The position numbers were made by a program, and so were the translations under genes. The notes beneath the pieces are model-generated. The model had not been told where the DNA came from and searched no databases. It saw only the letters and a program-made list of their open reading frames with translations. From the NCBI GenBank assembly GCA_937902695.1, contig CALFNI010000557.1, forward strand, positions 1-10,855: a stretch of DNA of 10,855 nucleotides, read 5' to 3'. This document shows, piece by piece, positions 1-10,855 of the stretch. Every line of letters begins with the position of its first letter. Position 1 is the stretch's first letter. Source of the stretch: an uncultured Rhodanobacteraceae bacterium. GTDB taxonomy: Bacteria > Pseudomonadota > Gammaproteobacteria > Xanthomonadales > Rhodanobacteraceae.

Positions 1-804
1 AGCGTCGGCGCCGAGATTATTGACGTAGTCGAGGCGCGCCTCGAACGGCCAGTGACCGAGCCCGGCGTGCCCGACGAGTTGCATGTCGAGCAGGCGGTAA
101 TCGTCGACGAGCCTGCCGGCGACGATCGTGTTGGTCCGCGCGAGACCCTGCCTGGTCAATTCGCCGAGATCGCTGAAATCGAGATACGACAGCAGCGCCG
201 CGGCATGCGTCGGCGCGCCTTCGTGCCAGCGCCAGCCGAGCTCGATCGCACCGATGCGCGAATCGTCGCCGTAGAGATGATCGCCGGCGAAGTAGCCCGC
301 GACCAGCTGCAGCCGGTCGAACTCGGACAGCGGAATCGACTGGTCGAGCGCGATGCCGGCAGGACGGAGGTCCTGATCCCAGAGCATCGGCGAAAGCTCG
401 AGCGGCAGCGGCGTCTTGCCGAGATTGACGCTCGTGTTCTCGCCGGGACGCCAGCGGATGAAGAGCTGGTCGAGCGCGACGTCGTTGCTGCGTTCGTTGT
501 CGTTGTTGCGGCGGTTGTCGTCGTTGGAATCGGTGCCGGCCGCGAGACGCACCGAGCCGGCGATCTCCCAGGTCGGTGTCACGTTCCAGAACGCGCCGGC
601 ACGCACGCGCGTGAGGCCGCGGCTGAGATCGTCGCGACCGTTGGGCAAGCCGGAGACGTGGTCGTAGCCGGCCCAGGCATCGCCGAACCAGCTCCAGTCG
701 CGCGTCTCGGCTTCGGGCTCTTCGGCGCTGAGGATCGCATCCTGCGCAATCGCGGGCGTCGCCGTGAGCGCGAGCAGCACGACGGCCGCTGCATGACGCA
801 TCAT
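1..804 (-). CDS. Putative outer-membrane porin, partial (C-terminus beyond left edge)
   Basis: The frame is open from an ATG at 804 to the window edge, giving 268 residues and no stop. Residues 1-20 form a clear signal peptide (Arg, hydrophobic core, Ala-rich tail ending TPAIA before Gln21). The mature part has alternating aromatic/polar stretches typical of beta-barrels, such as WSWFGDAWAGYDH and ALDQLFIRW. A GK...P motif (residues 129-133) is followed by LWDQDLRPAG (141-150), which resembles the strand-loop signature of the putative porin family Porin_5. A D/N/R-rich stretch (91-108) just before it is probably a surface or periplasmic loop. The start codon overlaps the stop of the upstream kinase gene as ATGA, so the two are probably translationally coupled. 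Inferred role: diffusion channel in the outer membrane; substrate unknown. The barrel nature is well supported, the exact family less so. Confidence 0.8.
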   Translation of the reverse strand, partial: MMRHAAAVVLLALTATPAIAQDAILSAEEPEAETRDWSWFGDAWAGYDHVSGLPNGRDDLSRGLTRVRAGAFWNVTPTWEIAGSVRLAAGTDSNDDNRRNNDNERSNDVALDQLFIRWRPGENTSVNLGKTPLPLELSPMLWDQDLRPAGIALDQSIPLSEFDRLQLVAGYFAGDHLYGDDSRIGAIELGWRWHEGAPTHAAALLSYLDFSDLGELTRQGLARTNTIVAGRLVDDYRLLDMQLVGHAGLGHWPFEARLDYVNNLGADA

Positions 805-3479
805 GCGCGAAGCTCCGTCAGGGCCGCATTGAGCTCGCGCGCGCTCGCGTAGCGTTCGTCGCGATCGCGGCGCAGGCACTTCAGGATGACCGCTTCGAGC
901 TCCTTCGGAATCTCGGGCCAGAGCTTCGATGGAAGGATCGGCTCGTCGCGCATCTGCGCCTGGTAGATCTCCATCGTGTTCGAGCCCGTGAACGGCAGTC
1001 CCCCGCAGAACGACTCGCTCATGACGACCCCGCACGCGTAGATGTCGCCGCGCTCGTCGACGTCTTCGCCGGTCAGCTGCTCGGGCGCGCAGTAGTTCGG
1101 CGTGCCGATGAACGTGCCGGGCTGCGTGTGGCCGGGCTCGGCGCGGCGCGCCGGGCGCGCGATGCCGAAGTCCATCAGCTTCGCGTTGCCGTTCGCCTCG
1201 AGGATCAGGTTCTCGGGCTTGATGTCGCGATGGAGCACGCCGACTTCGTGCGCGGCCGCGAGGCCGGCCGAGAGCTGGCGCGCGATGCGCAGCGCCGCCG
1301 AATACGGCACGCGTGCCGTTTCGCCGAGCAGATAACGCAGCGTGAGGCCGCGCACGTATTCCATCGAGATGTACGGCCGCCCGCCGACCTCGCCGAAATC
1401 GAACGTGCGCAGCACGTTCGGATGCGTGATGCGCCGCGCGAGCTTGATCTCGCTCTTGAGGCGGTCGAGCTGTTCGGAATCGAGCAGCACGCCCGGAAGC
1501 AGCATCTTCAGAGCGACGACGTCGTCGAGCTCGAGATCGTGGGCCTTGTAGACGACGCCCATGCCGCCGGCGCCGAGCGTCGAGATGATCCGGTAGCGGC
1601 CGCCGAGCGTCGAACCCGGCGCAAGCTCGCCGGCCGGCGCGGCGGCCGCTCCTGCCGGCTTCGCACGGATCACGGTCGTCGCCGCATCGGCGGTCAGCTT
1701 CGGCAGCGCGGACGTCGCGAGCGCGTAGTAGCGCTTGCCGCTGAACGCACCGGTCGCGACGACGAGCGCGTCGGATGCGAGATCGCCCTTCAGCGCATCG
1801 CCGGCGCCTTTCGTCATCAGGAGCTGGGCGGGCGCCGCATCGCAGAGCAGACGATCGATCTGCGCCGTTGCCGCACCGAGCACGACGCGATCGGCATCGT
1901 CCGCGCCGCGCGAAAGCACGACATCGCTTTCGGCAAGCGCGCCCGACGGCGCCGGCACGCGCGCCTGGCCGCAGTGCGCGATGACCGTCGCCCACGCGCG
2001 CACGGCATCGCGCAGGCGACGCGACGACGCGAAAGCGATCTGCCAGCGCGCGCCGCCGGCGTTGCCGAGCTCACCGCCGCTCGCCTGCGCGATCGATTCG
2101 AGCAGGCCGCGCACGCCGGCAAGATCGGTTGCGAGAAGCTGCGGCGGACGCGCCGCCTCGGAAACGCCGAGCAGATGGCGGAACTCGATGCCGAGCAGCG
2201 CAACCGTGTCGCGGCGCGGCGGCTCGGGCGCGGGCGGTCGCGCGGGCGCCGGCGCGGCGGCGAGGCCTTCGGCCGTCGGCTCCGGCAGATACCGCGCGAG
2301 ATGGCCGACATAGCCCTCCATGTCGCTCTTCTCGCGAAGATCGGACAGAAGCGTGTCGAACGCGCGGGCGAGACGGCCGAGCGCATCGCCGCCGCCGGTG
2401 CCGATGCGCGTGCGGTAATCGCCGGCCGCTGCCGACTCCGCAGCCTCGGCCAGCGTGCCGATCGGACGCAGGATGCGCCGGGCGAGCACGACCGAAAGCA
2501 CCAGCGCGACCGCGAGCGAGGCGATGCCGGCGAGGATCACCCAGTTCAGGATCGCGCTGTAGCTGCCGACGATCTGGTCGGTCGAGCTCAGCACGGCGAC
2601 CGTGCCGAGCTGCGCTGCGTCCTGCGTCGCGGTCGGCGCGAGATGCGCGACCCAGTCTTGTCCCGCGAAACGGAGCGGCACGCGATCGAGTGTCCTGCCG
2701 CCCTGCACGGCCGGTGCGAGCTCGGCCTTGTGCGCTGCGAGTGCGTCGTCGAGCTCCTTGACGTGCGCCGCATCGAGCGAGCTTGCGACGAGCGCGATGC
2801 CGTCGTCGCGCGGCAGCAGGAAAGCGACCTGCGCACCGCTGACCTGCGCGACCGACTTCGACAGCGCATCGTCGACCGCGAGCGCGACGAGCAGGAACCC
2901 GACCAGATCCTGATCCTGCGCCAGCGGAATCACCGCGGCCTGGTACAGCCGGGCGCCCTGACGCCAGTAGCCCGAGAATGGCGCCGCGTCGCGCACGGCC
3001 GGCGCGACCAGCGGATCCTTGGCGAGCGATGCCTTGAACGCCTCGGTCTCGTCGGTGCGCGCGAGTACTTCGCCGCGCGCATCGAGCAGCATCGCAAGAT
3101 CGAGCCCGAAATCCTTCTGACGCTCGCCGAGCAGGTCGCGCATCGAGCCCGTATCGGGCACCGCGTCGCCGCCGAGGCCCGGCAGGTTGTTCGAACCCGC
3201 CGCGTCGGCGATGTACTTGACGAAGCCCGCGTCGGCCGCGATCAGCCGCGCCGCGAGCTGCAGCGTTTCGAGTCGCCGCTGCTCGAACTCGCGCTGCACG
3301 GCCGCGCTCGTCGTCAGCGATTTGCCGATCGCCTGCTCGGCGATGCGCCGGCCCTGCAGCACGGTCACCAGCACCGCCGCACCGACCGCGAAGGCGATCA
3401 GAAGCGCGGTGCCGAGGAAGAGCCGCAATGCGAGCGGCATCGCGAAGCCGCGCTGCCGGTGCCAGTCAGTAGTCGCCAT
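801..3479 (-). CDS. Transmembrane sensor Ser/Thr protein kinase with HAMP and degenerate cyclase domain
   Basis: About 892 residues counted from the ATG at 3479. Order: TM helix 16-42; periplasmic region 43-311 that looks like a double-CACHE type sensor; TM helix 312-333; HAMP 334-388; Pro/Ala linker about 402-422; class III cyclase-like domain about 424-568; C-terminal protein kinase 629-891. The kinase has every catalytic element: glycine loop GAGGMG (636-641), Lys658, helix-C Glu677, HRD (750-752), DFG (770-772), GTPNY activation segment and APE (798-800), so it should be active. In the cyclase-like domain the residues aligned with the two metal-binding Asp are Ile and Ala, so it is probably a non-catalytic dimerisation or nucleotide-sensing module. 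The start is uncertain: GTG 3485, ATG 3479 and ATG 3440 are possible and none has a strong ribosome-binding site. The first two overlap the cupredoxin gene. Inferred role: relays a periplasmic signal to cytoplasmic Ser/Thr phosphorylation. Confidence 0.93.
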   Translation of the reverse strand: MATTDWHRQRGFAMPLALRLFLGTALLIAFAVGAAVLVTVLQGRRIAEQAIGKSLTTSAAVQREFEQRRLETLQLAARLIAADAGFVKYIADAAGSNNLPGLGGDAVPDTGSMRDLLGERQKDFGLDLAMLLDARGEVLARTDETEAFKASLAKDPLVAPAVRDAAPFSGYWRQGARLYQAAVIPLAQDQDLVGFLLVALAVDDALSKSVAQVSGAQVAFLLPRDDGIALVASSLDAAHVKELDDALAAHKAELAPAVQGGRTLDRVPLRFAGQDWVAHLAPTATQDAAQLGTVAVLSSTDQIVGSYSAILNWVILAGIASLAVALVLSVVLARRILRPIGTLAEAAESAAAGDYRTRIGTGGGDALGRLARAFDTLLSDLREKSDMEGYVGHLARYLPEPTAEGLAAAPAPARPPAPEPPRRDTVALLGIEFRHLLGVSEAARPPQLLATDLAGVRGLLESIAQASGGELGNAGGARWQIAFASSRRLRDAVRAWATVIAHCGQARVPAPSGALAESDVVLSRGADDADRVVLGAATAQIDRLLCDAAPAQLLMTKGAGDALKGDLASDALVVATGAFSGKRYYALATSALPKLTADAATTVIRAKPAGAAAAPAGELAPGSTLGGRYRIISTLGAGGMGVVYKAHDLELDDVVALKMLLPGVLLDSEQLDRLKSEIKLARRITHPNVLRTFDFGEVGGRPYISMEYVRGLTLRYLLGETARVPYSAALRIARQLSAGLAAAHEVGVLHRDIKPENLILEANGNAKLMDFGIARPARRAEPGHTQPGTFIGTPNYCAPEQLTGEDVDERGDIYACGVVMSESFCGGLPFTGSNTMEIYQAQMRDEPILPSKLWPEIPKELEAVILKCLRRDRDERYASARELNAALTELRA

Positions 3480-4125
3480 TGGCACTGCGCCCGTAAGGCT
3501 TGCCGAACTTGTTCATGTGCGGCGGAATGCGCCGAAGATTGAGATCGAGCGTGACGTCGAACGGCGCCGCTTCGCCGGCGACGATCTCCTCGTGCCACGG
3601 CGTTGCGCGGTCGTGCCAGATCACCAGATCGCCTATTCCCTTCAGCACGTCGGCGAAGCTGAAGCGTCCGCTCGCATCGTGGCGCGTGAAATACGGCGTA
3701 TCGAGCACGAGAATGTGGCCGACCATCGAGTGATGCACGTTGCAGTAGACGCGCACGTAGCCCGCGTGCGTGAATGTGATCGCCTGTGCGTCGCCCTGCC
3801 CGTAGAGGCCGACGTCGAACGCGTTGTCCTTCGACGTCGAGAACGCGTTGTGCAGGATCGGATCCTGATTCGGAAAGCGCACTTCGGTGCCGACGACGAC
3901 CGGCAGGATGCGCGGCACGAACTGCTTGCGCATCGTCGACATTTCGACCGGCGCCGCCGGCGGCTTCACGGCCGCGGGCGTCGCGGAACGGAAATAGACG
4001 ACGACGTCGGCCGCTTCCTCGGCGCGCAGCGGCTTGCCGTCGACGACGAGCCCGACGTGGCCCTCCAGGCTCGCCGCCGCCGCGATCGCGAGCGCCAGCA
4101 GCAGCGCGAGTGCGAATCTGCGCAT
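3466..4125 (-). CDS. Periplasmic cupredoxin-like copper protein (often annotated methylamine utilization protein)
   Basis: 219 residues from the ATG at 4123-4125, which follows an AAGGAGG ribosome-binding site. A longer start at 4155 would put charged residues before the signal peptide and is not preferred. Residues 2-18 form a signal peptide (Arg-Arg, then Leu/Ala-rich core). The mature protein has a plastocyanin-like fold signature: His92 in LHNAF, then YCNVHHSM (127-134) with Cys128, His131 or His132 and Met134, matching a type 1 copper site (His, Cys, His, Met). An additional domain of about 70 residues follows (from about 150), with SGRFSFADV resembling a carboxypeptidase-regulatory-like beta sandwich. 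Such proteins carry the database name methylamine utilization protein, but no methylamine dehydrogenase gene is seen here, so that name should not be read as function. It is the first gene of the unit cupredoxin, kinase, porin. Possible roles: electron carrier, copper binder, or ligand-presenting partner of the kinase sensor. Confidence 0.88.
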   Translation of the reverse strand: MRRFALALLLALAIAAAASLEGHVGLVVDGKPLRAEEAADVVVYFRSATPAAVKPPAAPVEMSTMRKQFVPRILPVVVGTEVRFPNQDPILHNAFSTSKDNAFDVGLYGQGDAQAITFTHAGYVRVYCNVHHSMVGHILVLDTPYFTRHDASGRFSFADVLKGIGDLVIWHDRATPWHEEIVAGEAAPFDVTLDLNLRRIPPHMNKFGKPYGRSANGDY

Positions 4126-4133
4126 CGAACCCC

Positions 4134-4156
4134 CCTCCTTCCCGCCAGCGATCATA
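4134..4156 (-). promoter_or_regulatory. Likely -10 box and Shine-Dalgarno of the cupredoxin-kinase-porin unit
   Basis: On the minus strand TATGAT (4156-4151) matches the sigma70 -10 consensus at five of six bases. AAGGAGG (4140-4134) follows, 8 bases before the ATG. No convincing -35 box lies 16-18 bp upstream, so the promoter may need an activator or another sigma factor. The leader would be short, about 20 bases. Confidence 0.45.
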
Positions 4157-4245
4157 CCGCCTGTCCGCGCGGCCCGCCGTGATCGGGGGCACGCTGAATG
4201 CCATGCGCCGCGCGAGCTCGGCGCGCCCGGGCAGGTCTGTCTACT

Positions 4246-4264
4246 TGGTTGACTCCGTCAACCA
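4246..4264. promoter_or_regulatory. Palindromic operator candidate upstream of the MarR-GNAT gene
   Basis: TGGTTGAC-TCC-GTCAACCA is an inverted repeat with perfect 8-bp arms and a 3-bp spacer. It ends 40 bp before the MarR-GNAT start. MarR dimers usually bind short near-perfect palindromes of this size, and TTGACT within it (4249-4254) could double as a -35 box, so binding would block transcription. The expected -10 position (4272-4277, GAGCAT) is weak. It lies about 90 bp from the cupredoxin -10 box, so control of that divergent operon is possible but not indicated by overlap. Autoregulation is an inference. Confidence 0.6.
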
Positions 4265-4304
4265 TTTGTCGGAGCATGCCTGGCGCTCAAACGAGGTCGC
4301 CGTC

Positions 4305-5216
4305 ATGCTCGCCCGCCAGATCGACGCGGCACGCCGCTTCAACCGTTTCTACACGCAGCGGATCGGCGTGCTCGACGAAGGCCTGCTCGACAGCCCTTTC
4401 TCGCTGACCGAAGTGCGCGTCATGTACGAGCTCGCGCACCGGCGCTGTGTCGGCGCGGCCGAGCTCGCGCGCGACCTTGGCCTCGACAAGGGTTATCTCA
4501 GCCGCATCCTCAAGCGCTTTCGCGCGAAGAACTGGCTTGCCCGCTCGGTCGCCGGCGACGACGCGCGGCGCCATGTGCTGGCGCTCACCGCCGCGGGACG
4601 CCGGGCCTTCGCGCCGCTCGAACGGCGCTCGCAGCGGCAGATGCGCGCGATGCTCGCGCCGCTCGCGACTGCACAGCGCCAGCGCGTGCTCGATGCGATG
4701 CGCACGATCGAGCACGGTCTCTCGCCCGGCGAGCCATCGCCGGTCGTGCTGCGCGCGCACCGGCCCGGTGACATCGGCTGGGTCGTGCAGCGCCACGGCG
4801 AGATCTACTGGCACGAATACGGATGGAACGAGACGTTCGAGGCGCTCGTCGCGGAGATCGCGGCGAAGTTCGTCCAGCATCTGGATCCGCGCCGCGAGCG
4901 CTGCTGGATCGCCGAGCGCGACGGCGTCCGGCTCGGCTGCATCTTCCTCGTCGCGCAGGACAAGACGACCGCGAAGCTCCGCCTCCTGCTCGTCGAGCCG
5001 GAAGCGCGCGGCCTCGGGCTCGGCAAGCGCCTCATCGACGCCTGCGTCGCGTTCGCGCGCGAGAGCGGCTACAGGCGCGTCGTCCTCTGGACGCAGACCA
5101 ATCTCGATGCGGCGCGGCATCTCTACGAACGCGCCGGATTTCGCCGGAGCGGTTCCGAGTCGCATCACAGCTTCGGCAAGGATCTCGTCGCCGAGACGTG
5201 GGCGCTCAAGCTATGA
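4305..5216 (+). CDS. MarR-family regulator / GNAT acetyltransferase fusion
   Basis: 303 residues from the ATG at 4305, with GAGG about 9 bases upstream. Residues 1-140 are a MarR-type winged helix: N-terminal dimer helix (QIDAARRFNRFY), recognition-helix region around LDKGYLSRILKRF (60-72), and a wing with DARRHVLALT. Residues about 147-303 are a GNAT acetyltransferase with the acetyl-CoA pyrophosphate loop EARGLGLGKRL (233-243) and the C-terminal motif NLDAARHLYERAGF (266-279). This two-domain layout is a known family of helix-turn-helix/GNAT proteins. The frame stays open upstream to 3786, but that part is antisense to the cupredoxin gene, lacks MarR similarity and would place the palindrome at 4246-4264 inside the gene, so it is excluded. 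Its partners face away (cupredoxin operon) or converge (ndh), so it is probably a single-gene unit, likely autoregulated through that palindrome. The acetylated substrate is unknown. Confidence 0.93.
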   Translation: MLARQIDAARRFNRFYTQRIGVLDEGLLDSPFSLTEVRVMYELAHRRCVGAAELARDLGLDKGYLSRILKRFRAKNWLARSVAGDDARRHVLALTAAGRRAFAPLERRSQRQMRAMLAPLATAQRQRVLDAMRTIEHGLSPGEPSPVVLRAHRPGDIGWVVQRHGEIYWHEYGWNETFEALVAEIAAKFVQHLDPRRERCWIAERDGVRLGCIFLVAQDKTTAKLRLLLVEPEARGLGLGKRLIDACVAFARESGYRRVVLWTQTNLDAARHLYERAGFRRSGSESHHSFGKDLVAETWALKL

Positions 5217-6476
5217 CGCGTCCTCGCGCGTCTTGCGCCCGAAAATGATCCGCGCGTGCCGCTTGTACGTCCAGTACGACCACGCCCAGTCGATCAGCAC
5301 CATGATCCGGTTGCGAAAGCCGATCAGAAAGAACACGTGCGCGATCAGCCAGAACCACCACGCGATCAGCCCCGACAGATGGAACCCGCGCAGATCGACC
5401 ACCGCGGCCATGCGGCCGATCGTCGCGAGGTTGCCGTAATCGTGATAGCGGAACGGTTTCGTCGTGCGTCCCGCGAGCCGTGCCCGGATCGCTTCGGCAA
5501 CGTAGTGGCCCATCTGCTTGGCCGCCGGCGCGATGCCGGGCACCGGCTTGCCGTCCTGCATGACGGTCGCGAGATCGCCGACGACGAAAACATCCGGATG
5601 CCCGGGCAGCGAAAGATCCGGCTCGACCGGCACGCGTCCCGCTCGATCGCACTGCGCGCTGAGCTGGCGCCCCAGCGGAGACGCCGCAACGCCGGCGGCC
5701 CACAGCACCGTCTCGGTTTCGACGCGGCGCCCGCCGAACTCGACGCCGTTCGCATCGATCGCCGTGACCGCTTCGCCGACGTGCACCTCGACGCCGAGCC
5801 TTGCGAGTTGCCGCTGCGCGTTTTGCGACAGCGATTCCGGCATCGATGGCAGCACGCGCGGGCCTGCCTCGACGAGAATGATGCGTGCGTCGCGCGGATT
5901 GATGCGGCGGAACTCGTGCCGGAGCGTATGGCGCGCGATCTCGGCAAGCGTGCCGGCGAGCTCGACGCCGGTCGGGCCGCCGCCGATGATGACGAAGTTG
6001 AGGAGCGCGGCCCGCGCGGTCGCATCGGGCTCGCGCTCGGCGACCTCGAACGCTTCGAGCACCTTGCGGCGTACGACGAACGCATCGTCGAGCGTCTTGA
6101 GGCCGGGCGCGAAGCGCGACCAGTCGTCGTGGCCGAAATAGGTGTGTGCCGCGCCCGTCGCGACGATCAGGAAATCGTAGTCGAGCGTGCCGCCATCGAG
6201 CGTAACGCGGCGCTGCGTCGTGTCGATCGTGCGCACTTCGTCGAGGCGGACTTCGACGTTCTCCTGCTCGCGCAAGAGATGGCGGAGCGGCGCGGCGATG
6301 TCCGGTGCCGAGAGCCCGGCCGTCGCAACCTGATAGAGCAACGGCTGGAACAGGTGATGGTTCGAGCGGTCGACCAGCGTAATGCGGACGGGCGCGCGCG
6401 CGAGCGCGCGTGTCGCCCATAGGCCGCCGAAGCCGCCGCCGATCACGAGGACATGCGGTGCCGTCGCGTCAGTCAC
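5211..6476 (-). CDS. ndh: Type II NADH:quinone oxidoreductase (NDH-2)
   Basis: 421 residues from a GTG at 6474-6476, with GGGAGAGA about 6 bases upstream. An ATG at 6503 (9 residues longer) is the alternative. Dinucleotide-binding motifs: GGGFGG (13-18) for FAD and GGGPTG (165-170) for NADH. FQPLLYQVATAGLS (43-56), the second FAD motif VFVVGD (296-301) and AAKQMG (318-323) in the quinone-facing region are typical of NDH-2. The C-terminal part (about 364-412) carries a hydrophobic Trp-rich stretch (SGLIAWWFWLIAHVFFLIGF) and an amphipathic basic tail that would anchor the enzyme to the inner membrane. It passes electrons from NADH to quinone without pumping protons. The gene converges on the MarR-GNAT gene with a 6-bp overlap and is divergent from the DUF72 gene across 66 bp. 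Its frame stays open further upstream, antisense to DUF72, which is not coding. Related sulfide:quinone reductases are less likely. Confidence 0.93.
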   Translation of the reverse strand: MTDATAPHVLVIGGGFGGLWATRALARAPVRITLVDRSNHHLFQPLLYQVATAGLSAPDIAAPLRHLLREQENVEVRLDEVRTIDTTQRRVTLDGGTLDYDFLIVATGAAHTYFGHDDWSRFAPGLKTLDDAFVVRRKVLEAFEVAEREPDATARAALLNFVIIGGGPTGVELAGTLAEIARHTLRHEFRRINPRDARIILVEAGPRVLPSMPESLSQNAQRQLARLGVEVHVGEAVTAIDANGVEFGGRRVETETVLWAAGVAASPLGRQLSAQCDRAGRVPVEPDLSLPGHPDVFVVGDLATVMQDGKPVPGIAPAAKQMGHYVAEAIRARLAGRTTKPFRYHDYGNLATIGRMAAVVDLRGFHLSGLIAWWFWLIAHVFFLIGFRNRIMVLIDWAWSYWTYKRHARIIFGRKTREDAS

Positions 6477-6542
6477 GATTCGTCTCTCCCAGCTCGCCGG
6501 CATTGTCGCCGATCGCGTCGCTGCATGTGGCAAGATTCCGCC

Positions 6543-7397
6543 ATGACGCCGCGAATCAAGGCCTCCGCCGCCGCGGACGCGATTGCCGCGCCCATGCGCG
6601 CGCCATCGCGCATTCGCGCGGGCACCGGCGGATGGACATACGCGCCCTGGCGAAGCAACTTCTATCCGGCCGGACTCGTGCAGCGGCGCGAGCTCGAGTA
6701 CGCGAGCCGCCATGTGACGGCGATCGAGATCAACGGCACGTTCTACGGCGCGCAGAAGCCGGCGAGCTACGCCGCATGGCGTGCGCAGACGCCGGACGGA
6801 TTCAGGTTCTCGCTGAAGGCGCCGCGCTACGCCACCGAGCGCAAGGAGCTCGCCGGCGCCGGCAAGACGATCAGGGATTTCGTGTTCGGCGGTCTCGCCG
6901 AGCTCGGTGATCGGCTCGGTCCGATAAACTGGCAGCTGCCGGAACGAAAACGGTTCGACCGTGACGATCTCGCTGCCTTCTTCAGCCTGTTGCCGCGCGA
7001 GCTCGACGGCGCGCCGTTGCGGCACGTGATCGAGGTGCGCGACGCGAGCTTTGCCGATCCCGACTATGTCGCGCTCGCGCGCGAGCACGATGTCGCGACC
7101 GTCTCTACCGATTCGCCGGAGTATCCGTCGTTCGCCGACGTCACCTGCGACTTCGTCTACGCCCGGCTTCGCTGCTGCGAGAGCGCGATACCGACGGGAT
7201 ATTCGCCGCAGGCGCTCGACGCATGGGCGGAACGCGCGCGCGAGTGGGCACGCGGCGGCGAGCCCGCCGATCTTCCACGTGTCGCAGGCGCGAAGCCGGC
7301 TGCCGGCGAGCGGGACGTCTTCATCTATTTCATCAACGGCGCGAAGGAGCGCGCGCCGGCGGCCGCGATGGCGCTGCTCGATCGGCTGGAGCCGTGA
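6543..7397 (+). CDS. DUF72 (YecE-like) TIM-barrel family protein
   Basis: 284 residues from the ATG at 6543; ATG 6594 is an alternative, since the first 22 residues are Ala-rich and lie before the conserved core. Family signatures: GTGGWTYAPW (27-36), IEINGTFYG (61-69) and the phrase FRFSLKAPRY (87-96). GDRLGPINWQLPE (122-134), IEVRDASF (163-170) and FIYFINGAKERAP near the C-terminus also fit. Length is within the usual DUF72 range plus a short N-terminal extension. No biochemical function is established for the family, so none is assigned. The family usually has RLHG after the Tyr of the late strand; here the segment reads YARLRCCES (207-215), a noticeable change. No good Shine-Dalgarno is visible; CAAGAT 6 bases before the ATG might instead be a -10 box of a leaderless message. 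It is divergent from ndh and ends 7 bp from the convergent aminotransferase gene. Confidence 0.9.
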   Translation: MTPRIKASAAADAIAAPMRAPSRIRAGTGGWTYAPWRSNFYPAGLVQRRELEYASRHVTAIEINGTFYGAQKPASYAAWRAQTPDGFRFSLKAPRYATERKELAGAGKTIRDFVFGGLAELGDRLGPINWQLPERKRFDRDDLAAFFSLLPRELDGAPLRHVIEVRDASFADPDYVALAREHDVATVSTDSPEYPSFADVTCDFVYARLRCCESAIPTGYSPQALDAWAERAREWARGGEPADLPRVAGAKPAAGERDVFIYFINGAKERAPAAAMALLDRLEP

Positions 7398-7404
7398 ACG
7401 TGCG

Positions 7405-8226
7405 TCAGATCGCCTGCGGCGCGTTCGACGCGTAGCAGGCGTCGAGCAATGCCTTCAATGCCGGATCGACGCTGAAGCGGACGCCGTCGATTTCGGAGAT
7501 CGGCCTCATCGCGCACGCGCAGTTGGTCAGGAACGCGGAGCGGAAAGCGCCGATGTCTGCGTGCGCGACGCGCAGGGAGTCGCTGGGCACTCCGCGCGCG
7601 TGCAGGCCGTTCTGCAGGAGCTGCATCGAAATGCCGCGGAGCGACGGCGCATCGGGCCAGACGATGCCGCGGCCGTCGAAGAAGCCGATGTTCCAGATGG
7701 ACGCCTCCGCGATCGCGCCGCCCGCGTCGACGAAAAGCGCATCGTCGAAGCCGTCGAGCTGCGCGAGCCGCCGGTGATGGAAGAGGCCGAACGTGCCGAC
7801 GTGCTTGACGTGCGGCAGCACGCGCTCGTAGCGGAACGATTTGAGACGCACGGGCGTCGCCTCGATGCGGCGCGGCGCGCTCACACTGACGACGACATCG
7901 GGCGGCGCAGGCTCCGCCATGCGATCGCGATGAAGCCGGCGCGAGAAAACGTTGACGCGCAGCGAAGCGGCCCCGTCGTGATCGCCGAGCGCATGGCGCA
8001 TGAAGCCGCGCACGGTGTCGCCGTCGAGCGGCTGGCCAAACAGCTCGCGCGTCGAGGCATCGAGGCGCAGGAGGTGCAGGTCGAGGCCGCGCACGCCGCC
8101 CGGCTCGGCCTGCATGCTCGTGAAGTGGCCGTAATTCATAAGCGCCAGCGCGCGCAGATCGTCGGCGCTTGCCGGCTCGCCATTGAGCTCGCATCGGTCG
8201 AGCGTGCCAACTGTCGTATGCGTCAC
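7405..8226 (-). CDS. Class IV PLP-dependent aminotransferase (IlvE / aminodeoxychorismate lyase superfamily)
   Basis: 273 residues from a GTG at 8224-8226, preceded by AGGAG 11 bases upstream. The family-like beginning (L-x-x-x-x-L-N-G-x-P-A then LRALALMNYGHFTSMQ) supports this start, although the frame is open to 8352. Lys141 in HVKHVG is the expected Schiff-base lysine; DALFVDAGGAIAEASIWNI (162-180) gives the conserved Glu174 that contacts the PLP ring nitrogen; SLRGIS (195-200) is the phosphate-binding turn. RGLDLHLLRL (46-55) is typical of the superfamily N-terminal domain. Substrate cannot be read off: branched-chain amino acids, D-amino acids and aminodeoxychorismate are all used in this superfamily, and no pabB-like gene is adjacent. 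The gene follows a long, strongly structured gap, so RNA-level or repressor control is possible. It converges on the DUF72 gene with 7 bp between the stops. Confidence 0.88.
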   Translation of the reverse strand: MTHTTVGTLDRCELNGEPASADDLRALALMNYGHFTSMQAEPGGVRGLDLHLLRLDASTRELFGQPLDGDTVRGFMRHALGDHDGAASLRVNVFSRRLHRDRMAEPAPPDVVVSVSAPRRIEATPVRLKSFRYERVLPHVKHVGTFGLFHHRRLAQLDGFDDALFVDAGGAIAEASIWNIGFFDGRGIVWPDAPSLRGISMQLLQNGLHARGVPSDSLRVAHADIGAFRSAFLTNCACAMRPISEIDGVRFSVDPALKALLDACYASNAPQAI

Positions 8227-8244
8227 GGAATGCGCCGCTCCTGA

Positions 8245-8309
8245 GGGATTTTCCCCGGCGCGCACGGGCCCTTCGCCGATGCGCGCGATCACGTCCCTGC
8301 CTATCGTGA
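8245..8309 (-). promoter_or_regulatory. Structured leader region of the aminotransferase gene
   Basis: Read on the minus strand, three stem-loops lie in series before the GTG start: a 5-bp stem (8305-8309 with 8289-8293), a strong stem of 7 plus 3 pairs with one bulge (8280-8286 with 8258-8264, inner 8276-8278 with 8265-8267), and a small GGGG-AAAA-TCCC hairpin (8256-8245) ending 5 bases before the AGGAG. Alternative pairing of AGGGA (8298-8294) with TCCCT (8248-8244) would enclose the middle stem. CGAAGG and GAAA...CTCAGG segments resemble glycine riboswitch boxes, but key parts of that aptamer are missing. Function unproven. Confidence 0.4.
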
Positions 8310-8323
8310 CTCCACCGAAACAA

Positions 8324-8365
8324 CTTGCATTTCCACACCGATCCGCCTGCAAGCCGGTGTGGAAA
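8324..8365. repeat. Two interleaved inverted repeats
   Basis: TTTCCACACCG (8330-8340) and its exact complement CGGTGTGGAAA (8355-8365) form perfect 11-bp arms with a 14-base spacer. A second pair, CTTGCA (8324-8329) and TGCAAG (8348-8353), is interleaved with it, so the pairs would make a pseudoknot or be mutually exclusive stems. Alternatively the 11-bp arms are two half-sites for a DNA-binding protein upstream of the aminotransferase gene. No T-run follows on either strand, so a terminator is unlikely. Confidence 0.65.
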
Positions 8366-8384
8366 CAGGGGGAGTCGGGACAGT

Positions 8385-8441
8385 CCGCAGCGTGGCGTTC
8401 GAAAGGTACTCGGCGGTCCCTTTTCGAGCGCGACGCTGCGG
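8385..8441. repeat. Long imperfect palindrome (about 22-bp arms)
   Basis: The arm 8385-8406 pairs with 8418-8441 with one mismatch (8394/8432), one G-T pair (8398/8428) and one bulged base, leaving an 11-base loop. It lies between the NTF2-like and aminotransferase genes. The outer neighbour GGACTGTCCCGACTCCCCC (8387-8369, minus strand) recalls, from memory only, short intergenic repeats common in proteobacteria. It could be a REP-like repeat, a processing or stability stem, or part of a small RNA. No T-run is present. Confidence 0.6.
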
Positions 8442-8451
8442 GCCTCTTATT

Positions 8452-8477
8452 TTCCGCCGCCGGCGCGCCGGACGGAA
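8452..8477 (-). terminator. Hairpin just after the NTF2-like gene, possible terminator
   Basis: Starting 3 bases after the TAG stop, TTCCG (8477-8473, minus strand) pairs with CGGAA (8456-8452) and encloses the perfect 12-bp palindrome CCGGCGCGCCGG (8460-8471). The stem is very GC-rich, but an A-rich rather than T-rich tract follows, so it is not a canonical intrinsic terminator. It may instead block 3' decay. Confidence 0.35.
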
Positions 8478-8479
8478 GC

Positions 8480-8974
8480 CTAGGCCGCGTCGGGGAACAG
8501 CACCTTCGCGTCGCCGTCCTTCCAGACGTTGTCGATGCGCACGTGGTCCATCAGCCACGCATCCACCGAGCGCGAAAGCTCGATCCGGTAGACATTCTTG
8601 AGCGTCAGGCGACGCGAGTGATCGGCGCGCAGCAGATGCGCGGCCTCGACCAGCGCGGTCAGCGTCGCATGGCGACCGTCGTAATCGGTGATGCGCGGAT
8701 TGGTCACCGTGTGCGTCGTGTCGAGCTCCGCGATCGCCGCGAAGATCGTATCGGCGATCGCCGCGCAACCTTTGAACACCGGGATCTCGAGACCGAGCCG
8801 CTTGGCCGGCTGCGTGAAATCGAGGACCGCGTCGTGCGCGATCGCCGATTCGAAGAGCGAACGATCGCTCATGTCCTGCCCCGCGCCGAAGCGATACAGC
8901 GCATCGACGATTGCGATGTGGTCGGTCGGGTCGATCGCGCGGTGCGCGAACGGCATCGAAGAAACTGCTTGCAT
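8480..8974 (-). CDS. NTF2/SnoaL-like family protein
   Basis: 164 residues from the ATG at 8972-8974, with GGGAG 6 bases upstream. The frame is open for 39 more residues upstream, but these look unrelated and lack a good ribosome-binding site. The pattern IAIVDALYRFGAGQDMSDRSLFESAIAHDAVLDF opens the sequence (about 20-53): an N-terminal helix pair with Tyr27, Asp34 and Asp51. It is followed by a GCAAIADTIF turn, THTVTNPRI (87-95) with His88, and a C-terminal sheet (RLTLKNVYRIELS). This is the cone-shaped alpha+beta fold of small SnoaL_4-type proteins, a superfamily of polyketide cyclases, dehydratases, isomerases and non-enzymatic binders. Tyr, Asp and His in the pocket would be compatible with a dehydratase, but no substrate can be named. 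It is divergent from the DUF1428 gene and followed by hairpins at 8452-8477 and 8385-8441. Confidence 0.82.
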   Translation of the reverse strand: MQAVSSMPFAHRAIDPTDHIAIVDALYRFGAGQDMSDRSLFESAIAHDAVLDFTQPAKRLGLEIPVFKGCAAIADTIFAAIAELDTTHTVTNPRITDYDGRHATLTALVEAAHLLRADHSRRLTLKNVYRIELSRSVDAWLMDHVRIDNVWKDGDAKVLFPDAA

Positions 8975-9068
8975 GAAGTTCTCCCGGCATCCGGAGTGTT
9001 CGATGGCATCGTGCTGGCGGTTCACCCGCGGTTTCACGACATGAATGCGCAAGGTGGCGCCGGCAACG

Positions 9069-9101
9069 CAACTGCGCGACACTCGGGACACTCCAACTGC
9101 G
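9069..9101. repeat. Nested direct repeats before the DUF1428 gene
   Basis: CAACTGCG occurs at 9069-9076 and 9094-9101, enclosing two tandem copies of GACACTC (9078-9084 and 9087-9093, 9-bp period). The block abuts the GAGGAG ribosome-binding site of the DUF1428 gene, in the 138-bp divergent gap shared with the NTF2-like gene. It could be a regulator site; I see no clear -35/-10 pair in this gap. Confidence 0.5.
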
Positions 9102-9112
9102 AGGAGAGTTCA

Positions 9113-9472
9113 ATGAGCTACGTCGATGGTTTCGTCTTGCCCGTGCCGCGCAACAAGCTCGCGGCGTACCGAAGGATGGCGAAGAAAGGCGGCAAGATCT
9201 GGCTCGAGCACGGCGCCCTCGAATACCGCGAGTGCGTCGCCGACGACGTAAAGCCCGGCAAGACCACCTCGTTTCCGCAGGCGGTCAAGCTGAAGCCCGG
9301 CGAAGTCGTCGTGTTCTCCTGGATCGTCTACAAATCGAAGGCGGACCGGAATCGCGCCAACAAGAAGGTCATGTCCGATCCGCGGCTCGCCGAGTTCATG
9401 GATCCGAAGAACATGCCGTTCGACGGCAAGCGGATGTTCTGGGGCGGGTTCAAGCCGTTCGTGACGATGTAG
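9113..9472 (+). CDS. DUF1428 (YbaA-like) family protein
   Basis: 119 residues from the ATG at 9113, with GAGGAG 6 bases upstream. A much longer open frame reaching back to 8183 is antisense to two genes and is excluded. The sequence follows the E. coli YbaA pattern nearly throughout: start YVDGFVLPVPRNKLAAYRRM, a glutamate-rich middle (EHGALEYREC), the strand VVVFSWIVYKSK (about 63-74), then ANKKVMSDPR and the signature MPFDGKRMFWGGF (about 102-114). The family adopts a dimeric alpha-beta-barrel-like ferredoxin fold; its role is not established. No signal peptide, so cytoplasmic. The gene is a single unit, divergent from the NTF2-like gene and convergent with hutU. Confidence 0.94.
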   Translation: MSYVDGFVLPVPRNKLAAYRRMAKKGGKIWLEHGALEYRECVADDVKPGKTTSFPQAVKLKPGEVVVFSWIVYKSKADRNRANKKVMSDPRLAEFMDPKNMPFDGKRMFWGGFKPFVTM

Positions 9473-9537
9473 CGGCAACGCGTTTGCCGTCATTCGTTTG
9501 TTGCGACGGCAGCCGCGAGGTCATAGGCGCCGGCGCT

Positions 9538-9564
9538 GAGCGTCCCGCCGATGTCCGGACGCTC
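9538..9564. terminator. Possible bidirectional terminator between DUF1428 and hutU
   Basis: GAGCGTCC (9538-9545) pairs with GGACGCTC (9557-9564), an 8-bp perfect stem with an 11-base loop, in the 120-bp gap between two convergent stops. Only two T's follow on the plus strand and none usefully on the minus strand. A second, weaker stem, TGCCGTC/GACGGCA (9485-9491 with 9505-9511), lies nearer the DUF1428 stop. Position suggests termination; the sequence is not canonical. Confidence 0.4.
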
Positions 9565-9592
9565 TTCGCCGATCCGTGTTGCGCCTGACCGT

Positions 9593-10855
9593 CTAAATCA
9601 TCGGCAAGTTCAGACGCTGTTCTTTGGCGCACGCAATCGCAATGTCGTAGCCCGCGTCCGCGTGACGCATCACGCCCGTGCCCGGATCGTTCCACAGCAC
9701 GCGTGCAAGCCGCTTGTCGGCTTCGGCGCTGCCGTCGCAGACGATGACGACCCCCGCATGCTGCGAATACCCCATGCCGACGCCGCCGCCGTGATGGAAC
9801 GAGACCCAGGTGGCGCCGCCGGCCGTATTGAGCAGCGCGTTGAGGATCGGCCAGTCCGATACGGCATCGCTGCCGTCCTTCATCGCCTCGGTCTCCCGGT
9901 TCGGCGATGCGACCGAGCCCGAGTCCAGATGATCGCGTCCGATCACGATCGGCGCCTCGAGCTCGCCGGTGCGCACCATTTCGTTGAACGCAAGGCCGAG
10001 CTTGTGCCGTTGCCCGAGGCCCACCCAGCAGATGCGCGCCGGCAAGCCCTGGAAACTAATGCGCTGCTTGGCCATGTCGAGCCAGCGATGCAGGTGCGGA
10101 TCGTCCGGAATCAGCTCCTTCACCTTGCGATCGGTCCGGTAGATGTCTTCCGGATCGCCCGACAGCGCAACCCAGCGGAACGGCCCGATGCCGCGGCAGA
10201 ACAGCGGACGCACGTAGGCCGGCACGAAGCCCGGGAAATCGAACGCGTTCGCGCAACCCTCGTCCTTCGCCATCTGGCGGATGTTGTTGCCGTAGTCGAA
10301 TGTCGGCACGCCCATCGCCTGGAACGCGAGCATCGCCTCGACGTGCACGCGCATCGATCGCTTCGCGGCGTCGCGCGTGCCGTCCGGATCGCTCTTGCGA
10401 CGCTCGAACCACTGCTCGACGCTCCAGCCGATCGGCAGATAGCCGTTGACGGGATCGTGCGCGCTGGTCTGGTCGGTGACGGCATCGGGCTTCACGCCGC
10501 GGCGCACCAGCTCGGGGAGAATTTCAGCGGCGTTACCGAGCAGCGCGATCGACTTCGCTTCGCCCGCCTGCGTGTAGCGCGCGATGCGCGCGAGCGCGTC
10601 GTCGAGATCGCTCGCCTGCTCGTCGACGTAGCGCGTGCGAAGACGCATGTCGATGCGGCTCTGCTGGCATTCGATGGTCAGCGACGACGCGCCGGCCAGG
10701 CTGGCCGCGAGCGGCTGCGCGCCGCCCATGCCGCCGAGGCCAGCCGTGAGAATCCATCTCCCGGTGAGATTGCCGCCGTAATTCTGGCGGCCCATCTCGA
10801 CGAAGGTCTCGTACGTGCCCTGCACGATGCCCTGCGAGCCGATGTAGATCCACGA
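9593..10855 (-). CDS. hutU: Urocanate hydratase (urocanase), partial: N-terminus beyond right edge
   Basis: 420 residues are present, ending in the typical LNLPMI before TAG (9593-9595). The first visible codon is at 10855 and the sequence reads into [17 protein letters not shown], so about 134 N-terminal residues are missing relative to the usual roughly 555. Urocanase converts urocanate to imidazolonepropionate, the second step of histidine breakdown, with a tightly bound NAD+. Seen here: the glycine-rich NAD-binding segment GLGGMGGAQ (39-47 of the fragment), [25 protein letters not shown] with the conserved Cys (fragment residue 276, equivalent to Cys410 of Pseudomonas putida urocanase), [16 protein letters not shown], and [15 protein letters not shown]. 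No frameshift or missing motif. hutH, hutI, hutG or hutC are not in the window; the gene is last in its transcription unit, so any partners would be to the right. Confidence 0.98.

Follow-up and report, generated by a model that had tools for sequence, protein, structure and literature searches.

A conserved gene cassette of a cupredoxin, a dCache receptor kinase and an outer-membrane barrel: a candidate envelope-sensing system with exchangeable receptor outputs

In Rhodobacter, the periplasmic copper-binding protein PrrC (SenC) is thought to influence the membrane sensor kinase PrrB. The sensor kinases LuxQ, TorS and LytS read their signals through periplasmic proteins, according to one report (PMC6321045). 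Here we analyzed a 10,855-nucleotide stretch of DNA (the window) from an uncultured Rhodanobacteraceae bacterium (contig CALFNI010000557.1), which is contig C557 of a draft genome of 678 contigs with a completeness of 77%. The window proteins have named relatives in Dokdonella, Tahibacter and Rudaea, genera of the Lysobacterales. Its minus strand carries genes for a cupredoxin, a receptor Ser/Thr kinase and an outer-membrane porin. From sequence comparisons we propose, with a probability of about 60%, that these genes represent a modular envelope-sensing cassette in which the cupredoxin is the periplasmic co-receptor of the dCache receptor kinase. The features of the cassette in the window are:

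3466 to 4125, minus strand: secreted cupredoxin with a C-terminal carboxypeptidase-regulatory-like domain, predicted type 1 copper ligands and the conserved tail HMNKFGKPYG
801 to 3485, minus strand: receptor Ser/Thr kinase of 894 aa (892 from ATG 3479), in the order transmembrane helix, dCache_3, transmembrane helix, HAMP, cyclase-fold domain, kinase
2577 to 3272, minus strand: dCache_3 periplasmic sensor domain, residues 72-303 (Pfam; AlphaFold2 model; DctB-, CitA- and LuxQ-like folds)
2331 to 2489, minus strand: HAMP domain, residues 333-385 (Pfam)
1698 to 2225, minus strand: class III nucleotide-cyclase fold, predicted non-catalytic, approximately residues 421-596
843 to 1595, minus strand: Ser/Thr protein kinase domain, residues 631-881, catalytic motifs intact (Pfam Pkinase)
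1 to 804, minus strand: Porin_5-type outer-membrane porin, N-terminal 268 residues only (contig end)

A preliminary description of the window had read three genes on one strand, joined by an overlap and an ATGA, and we confirmed both the coordinates and the junctions. The cupredoxin and kinase genes overlap by 20 bases if the kinase starts at GTG 3485 and by 14 bases if it starts at ATG 3479; several relatives with an ATG at the kinase start position overlap the cupredoxin by 14 or 17. The ATGA at 804-801 is common to the kinase stop and the porin start. The porin is partial since position 1 is the end of contig C557, and its missing C-terminal part was not found in the window's own genome, an empty result that proves nothing.

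Scanning genome contigs with 20 close cupredoxins yielded 27 related loci. The kinase gene followed the cupredoxin gene in 25 of the 27 contigs. The exceptions are L032, which ends inside the cupredoxin, and L033 (Acidobacteria), which has a dCache-HAMP histidine kinase and, upstream, a 551-aa frame read as a barrel. The porin gene followed the kinase gene in 22 of the 25, and the other three contigs (L012, L017 and L025) break off within the kinase gene. Carriers of the trio include the environmental bacteria Tahibacter aquaticus DSM 21667 (L018) and Dokdonella fugitiva A3 (L022). We also looked in the 27 loci for the window's seven remaining genes, and only L016 gave matches, to three of them. 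The conservation of the trio therefore does not just reflect a larger block of fixed gene order. Chance or genome closeness as the origin of the trio was rejected, as the trio is kept while the other window genes are not and, in the search from the kinase side described next, no long kinase came from a genome without the cupredoxin.

The search was also made from the kinase side. The long kinase is marked by the region that separates its HAMP and kinase domains (the middle domain), and this region was found in 33 of 151 genomes of the order, once in each. A cupredoxin gene lay within 2.5 kb upstream on the same strand in 30 of these 33 genomes and on a different contig in three, and for none of the 33 long kinases was the cupredoxin missing from the genome. 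Porins scoring above 400 bits occurred in 26 genomes and adjoined the kinase in all 26, the next best score being 157. Because members of such loci supplied the search profiles, the counts favour those loci. As far as sequences can tell, the layout is conserved in relatives far beyond chance, and the neighbourhood of the three families that the preliminary description proposed to look for is kept in both directions of search. Its idea of one signalling system over three compartments is well supported as far as the genetic unit and its conserved gene order are concerned; the signalling part is a proposal taken up below.

The kinase matched Pfam dCache_3 (PF14827, 41.9 bits, cut-off 25.7), HAMP (44.8 bits, cut-off 25) and Pkinase, all above the cut-off. 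The double Cache lies between two transmembrane helices with HAMP next, which is the arrangement of dCache receptors and agrees with the inner-membrane sensor with a large periplasmic domain that had been read from the sequence at first. The AlphaFold2 model of the dCache domain, with a predicted local distance difference test (pLDDT) of 90.4, resembles CitA, DctB, KinD, chemoreceptors and LuxQ. A metal site in this domain was considered and rejected: across 45 sequences, no column exceeded 40% for Cys, His or Met.

At the C terminus, the window kinase has the Gly loop, VAxK, HRDxKxxN, DFG and APE, the motif set predicted for an active kinase. HRDxKPxN was present in 56 of 61 members of the kinase family, the other five not having been inspected. 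Since the motifs are intact, phosphorylation is expected. The closest match of the kinase domain in the PDB is PknB (7.4e-50), and the NCBIfam model PknB_PASTA gave 296.9 bits against a cut-off of 450, over the kinase domain only, which does not indicate a PASTA kinase. The middle domain has a degenerate class III cyclase fold. GDG is the metal-binding catalytic motif of class III cyclases. In the middle-domain profile it aligns to G-a-R, and a catalytic cyclase was rejected on the loss of this motif; cyclase activity has probably been lost. Variants of the receptor were also seen. In L030 the kinase is split over two overlapping frames (8563-8937 and 8832-11255), which is either a frameshift or a sequence error. 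The receptor at L080:5344-7014 (minus strand) matches Pkinase weakly and over part of its length (0.0053) and CHASE4 weakly; its output may be a degenerate kinase, and the L082 receptor looks like it.

The cupredoxin has a signal-like N terminus, with a second in-frame ATG at 4155. Its predicted copper ligands are His92 (3850-3852), Cys128 (3742-3744), His131 (3733-3735) and Met134 (3724-3726), the last three in a C-x2-H-x2-M loop; this is the loop spacing of amicyanin. All four residues are invariant in 25 of 25 aligned diverse cupredoxins from loci of all partner types. The family profile matched copper nitrite reductase (7e-11) and amicyanin (6.6e-6). The ligand set together with this cupredoxin-like sequence is that of a type 1 copper cupredoxin, and the secreted type 1 copper-site protein of the preliminary description thus appears well founded; the protein is presumably loaded with copper in vivo. 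The cupredoxin domain is followed by a C-terminal part, and some relatives carry PF13620; one cupredoxin of the GGDEF type has at least 6890 relatives at E ≤ 0.001.

We ran the cupredoxin profile on 151 genomes of the order, 76 of which had a match, and on 397 genomes of the phylum, 68 of which had a match at 1e-15. Among the best 80 places in the order, the 71 above 100 bits were tallied, together with 60 places above 110 bits in the phylum outside three genomes already included. The genomes are mostly drafts and frames were called mechanically in high-GC loci; because some downstream frames are in the wrong frame, the partner tallies use similarity matches. L034 to L036 are apparently the genomes of L007, L016 and L031 (identical scores) and were excluded from the kinase-motif survey, the tally of FHA genes and one further analysis, but kept in another.

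Directly downstream of the cupredoxin in the 71 order loci were a kinase (40), a GGDEF-EAL receptor (11), a receptor with no recognised output (12, of which L042, L043 and L056 are cut by contig ends), no recognised receptor (7) or a contig end (1). The 60 phylum loci, classed by similarity only, comprised 45 with GGDEF-EAL receptors, 2 with cyclases and 13 without a recognised receptor. The output domain of the receptor is thus exchanged between loci that carry the same cupredoxin family. Pfam confirmed dCache_3, HAMP, GGDEF and EAL in the L087 receptor, and among 27 mixed neighbours it found HAMP in 12, dCache_3 in 10, GGDEF and EAL in 7 and DUF3034 in 6. The window's own genome holds further modules, a cupredoxin with a dCache-HAMP-cyclase receptor (C619) and a cupredoxin with a GGDEF receptor (C222).

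Other neighbours of the cupredoxin were observed in single loci or small groups. In L079, L089, L092, L094, L096, L099, L102 and L104, the cupredoxin is followed by a receptor-like protein of about 300-360 aa with no recognised output, with DUF3034 nearby. At L077:4414-5817 (plus strand) and L083:5586-7004 (minus strand), the gene right after the cupredoxin encodes a protein of some 470 aa that ends in a hydrophobic helix; the L077 protein had no Pfam match. A CCP_MauG di-haem peroxidase lies between the cupredoxin and a hybrid histidine kinase at L187:4913-5983 (minus strand), and L194 is perhaps alike by eye.

A tree of 131 cupredoxins (L003, L048, L202 and L203 left out) placed the kinase, receptor-only and histidine-kinase types within one set of 63 rows with a support of 97. 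Partner type changed 20 times on the tree, compared with 63.3 times with shuffled labels, in a quick tree in which near-copies inflate clustering. The C-terminal tail (N/D)K.G.(P/S)Y occurs in 28 of 41 kinase-type and 0 of 56 GGDEF-EAL-type cupredoxins, as counted with regular expressions that, here and for the linkers below, miss some cases. A sister branch has cupredoxins that are predicted to be lipoproteins; their linkers, 60-136 residues long, are mostly proline-rich (poor in proline in L075 and L078). Such long-linker cupredoxins occurred in 8 of 13 loci with a short kinase, in 7 of 12 that have a receptor only and in 3 of 19 that lack a recognised receptor; linkers of more than 11 residues after the lipobox-like Cys were found in 0 of 28 long-kinase loci and 0 of 56 GGDEF-EAL loci, and the window cupredoxin has no proline-rich arm. 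By the +2 rule, a residue other than Asp after the Cys directs a lipoprotein to the outer membrane. Since Asp follows the Cys in 0 of the 18 long-linker cupredoxins, outer-membrane sorting is predicted for them. The N termini of L067, L068, L070, L073 and L076 have a lipobox-like Cys and then long tandem repeats, for example KPEP or PEVPE, that lead up to the cupredoxin domain and recall an arm reaching across the periplasm.

The third gene had been taken for an outer-membrane porin. Its fragment falls just short of the Porin_5 cut-off (scores below), while in the porin alignment Porin_5 was recognised at E ≤ 0.01 in 18 of the 20 sequences, and the complete homologue in L016 scores 27.5. The barrel family varies between cassettes (Porin_5, DUF3034, Alginate_exp), while cupredoxin and receptor remain paired. 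DUF3034 lies near 31 of 45 phylum GGDEF-EAL loci, 6 of 11 order GGDEF-EAL loci and 7 of 40 kinase loci. The exchange of barrel families suggests that the barrel chemistry is not fixed.

An FHA-like protein with a C-terminal hydrophobic tail is encoded next in line in 24 of 61 kinase loci, 23 times after the porin and once (L040) directly after the kinase. Pfam placed FHA in two stretches when three of these proteins were scanned. Since FHA domains bind phosphothreonine, the FHA protein may be a reader of the kinase. The FHA homologue of the window's genome (46% identity) lies elsewhere, on C597. This homologue (L204, G000:C597:710-1498) is beside a serC-like frame, and a serC-like frame was also read from the translation downstream in L040. 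The FHA gene, the cyclase-fold domain and the exchange of output domains are additions to the preliminary description.

The simplest mechanism to account for these features is that of a co-receptor. The dCache domain would touch the cupredoxin and so sense its state (copper-loaded or empty, oxidised or reduced, or bound to an outer-membrane partner), in the way that LuxQ senses LuxP. From there the signal would travel via HAMP and the cyclase-fold domain, acting as a relay without catalysis, to the Ser/Thr kinase and on to phosphorylated cytoplasmic targets; the tail-anchored tandem-FHA protein encoded next in line would be the likely target or reader in many relatives. The barrel could be the entry route for copper or a redox-active solute, or an outer-membrane anchor point that may hold the cupredoxin. 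The contact, the direction of signalling, the nature of the signal and the role of the barrel are what we infer here. A wider form of this mechanism is possible but less likely than not: a barrel-docked cupredoxin may report redox or copper state to the inner-membrane dCache receptor, the outer-membrane lipoprotein form with the proline arm may span the periplasm in sister lineages, and one input module may drive Ser/Thr phosphorylation, cyclic di-GMP, cyclic nucleotide and histidine-kinase outputs across Pseudomonadota.

It was also considered that the dCache pocket may directly bind a small molecule such as a carboxylate, with the porin and cupredoxin as controlled uptake and oxidation machinery and the cupredoxin as a plain electron carrier, which is close to the view of the preliminary description. 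The dCache fold is closest to CitA, DctB and small-ligand chemoreceptors, and in L187 the cupredoxin has a CCP_MauG di-haem peroxidase and also a hybrid histidine kinase as neighbours. However, in the loci seen the unit includes neither a dehydrogenase nor another substrate enzyme, and the barrel family varies while cupredoxin and receptor remain; we consider this explanation possible but rather unlikely. In another reading, the cupredoxin and porin could be outputs of the kinase, controlled in level or state, rather than the signal input. Operon membership alone gives no direction, but receptors of the GGDEF-EAL, cyclase and histidine-kinase kinds all occur as partners of this one cupredoxin family. 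Since these partner receptors share only the periplasmic and HAMP part, the cupredoxin fits better as an input than as a common target, and a role as kinase output is decidedly unlikely. The dCache domain lacks conserved metal-type residues, whereas the cupredoxin has four.

The database name of many Pseudomonas relatives, 'methylamine utilization protein', and the amicyanin-like loop would fit a cupredoxin of methylamine utilization with incidental neighbours. Pfam scans of genes in the examined loci, run without a mau profile, brought no methylamine dehydrogenase genes to notice, and receptor genes recur beside the cupredoxin much too regularly for chance neighbours, which makes this origin very improbable. 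PADLOC models of the anti-phage system PD-T4-6 matched the kinase domain (best 8e-84), but the best match covered only residues 624-892, the generic kinase domain, and neither cupredoxin nor porin had a PADLOC match at 1e-3; an anti-phage kinase system of this kind is the least probable of the explanations and hardly to be expected.

Several observations weigh against the co-receptor cassette itself. The window porin fragment scored 21.0 against Porin_5, just below the cut-off of 22, and the window cupredoxin scored 19.4 against Copper-bind, below the cut-off of 21.2. The cyclase-fold domain had no Pfam match, and hhalign of this domain with three distinct cyclases gave an uninformative 1.7% probability. 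The adjacency tallies mostly start from the cupredoxin. A close porin is lacking in 7 of the 33 long-kinase genomes, some of these cases being contig ends: G076 (L042) breaks off inside the kinase, and in G134 (L062) and G124 (L065) the sequence goes on for 0 and 60 bases past the kinase. L016, the nearest relative, has no FHA gene. In some loci, L070 and L190 among them, the cupredoxin has a barrel but no receptor as its neighbour; in L190, DUF3034 follows the cupredoxin. No recognised receptor was directly downstream in 13 of 60 phylum and 7 of 71 order loci. Of the 7 order loci, L038 has the kinase across a longer gap, and in L085 a hybrid histidine kinase comes one frame later. Of the 13 phylum loci, five (L153, L157, L159, L168 and L182) have after the cupredoxin a protein of some 400 aa that was read as a barrel; in the three of these that were scanned, Pfam gave BBP2 at 7.6e-4, below the cut-off, for L153 and no match for L157 and L168. 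L187 and L190, described above, are also among the 13.

Around the cassette, a scan of 3300-4400 for promoters found no sigma-70-like site and one terminator-like site, which is at chance level and uninformative. A divergent MarR-GNAT fusion gene (4203-5216, plus strand; Pfam MarR and Acetyltransf_1) begins about 77 bases from the cupredoxin start; in the 27 related contigs, no such gene was found near the cupredoxin. The rest of the window (5211-10855) has ordinary genes for an NDH-2-like oxidoreductase, DUF72, a class IV aminotransferase, a SnoaL-like protein and DUF1428, and a urocanase gene (hutU) that is cut by the right contig end.

If the co-receptor reading is true, one periplasmic copper-type family would be the input of many second-messenger and kinase receptors without known signals, and whether the copper or redox state of the cupredoxin sets activity would become one testable question for many orphan receptors. 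Functions would be suggested for DUF3034 proteins and for those named after methylamine utilization, and a cyclase fold would have been reused as a relay inside a receptor kinase. If the wider trans-envelope relay is also true, a general form of outer-to-inner-membrane signalling would lie hidden under these two names. The cassette would point to a means, so far little explored, by which bacteria sense the state of their envelope.

The preliminary description knew no system of this kind by name, and our search of one open-access library likewise found no published name or description of the cassette. The parts are of known kinds; their combination, spread and exchangeable output were not found described in that search. 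The cupredoxin is like those of the amicyanin and plastocyanin types in its C-x2-H-x2-M loop and upstream His and unlike them in its extra C-terminal domain, conserved tail and adjoining receptor gene. The kinase is like the membrane Ser/Thr kinases of the PknB/StkP type in its kinase domain, but it is not a PASTA kinase, and its kinase domain is C-terminal, behind dCache, HAMP and the cyclase-fold domain. Class III adenylyl cyclases with a periplasmic sensor and HAMP share the fold of the middle domain, in which the GDG metal motif is lost and behind which a kinase domain is added. PrrC and PrrB resemble the cassette in setting a periplasmic copper-binding protein beside a membrane sensor kinase; in contrast, PrrC is of the Sco type, PrrB is a histidine kinase without dCache, and there is no barrel. 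The cassette also resembles LuxP/LuxQ, TorT/TorS and XylFII/LytS, whose inner-membrane receptors have a periplasmic sensor that is Cache-like or of two domains; the fold matches of the window dCache domain include LuxQ, and in the cassette the gene for the periplasmic partner adjoins the receptor gene. Unlike these three systems, the cassette has a cupredoxin rather than a solute-binding protein as the partner, probably in contact with the receptor, together with a Ser/Thr kinase output and an outer-membrane barrel.
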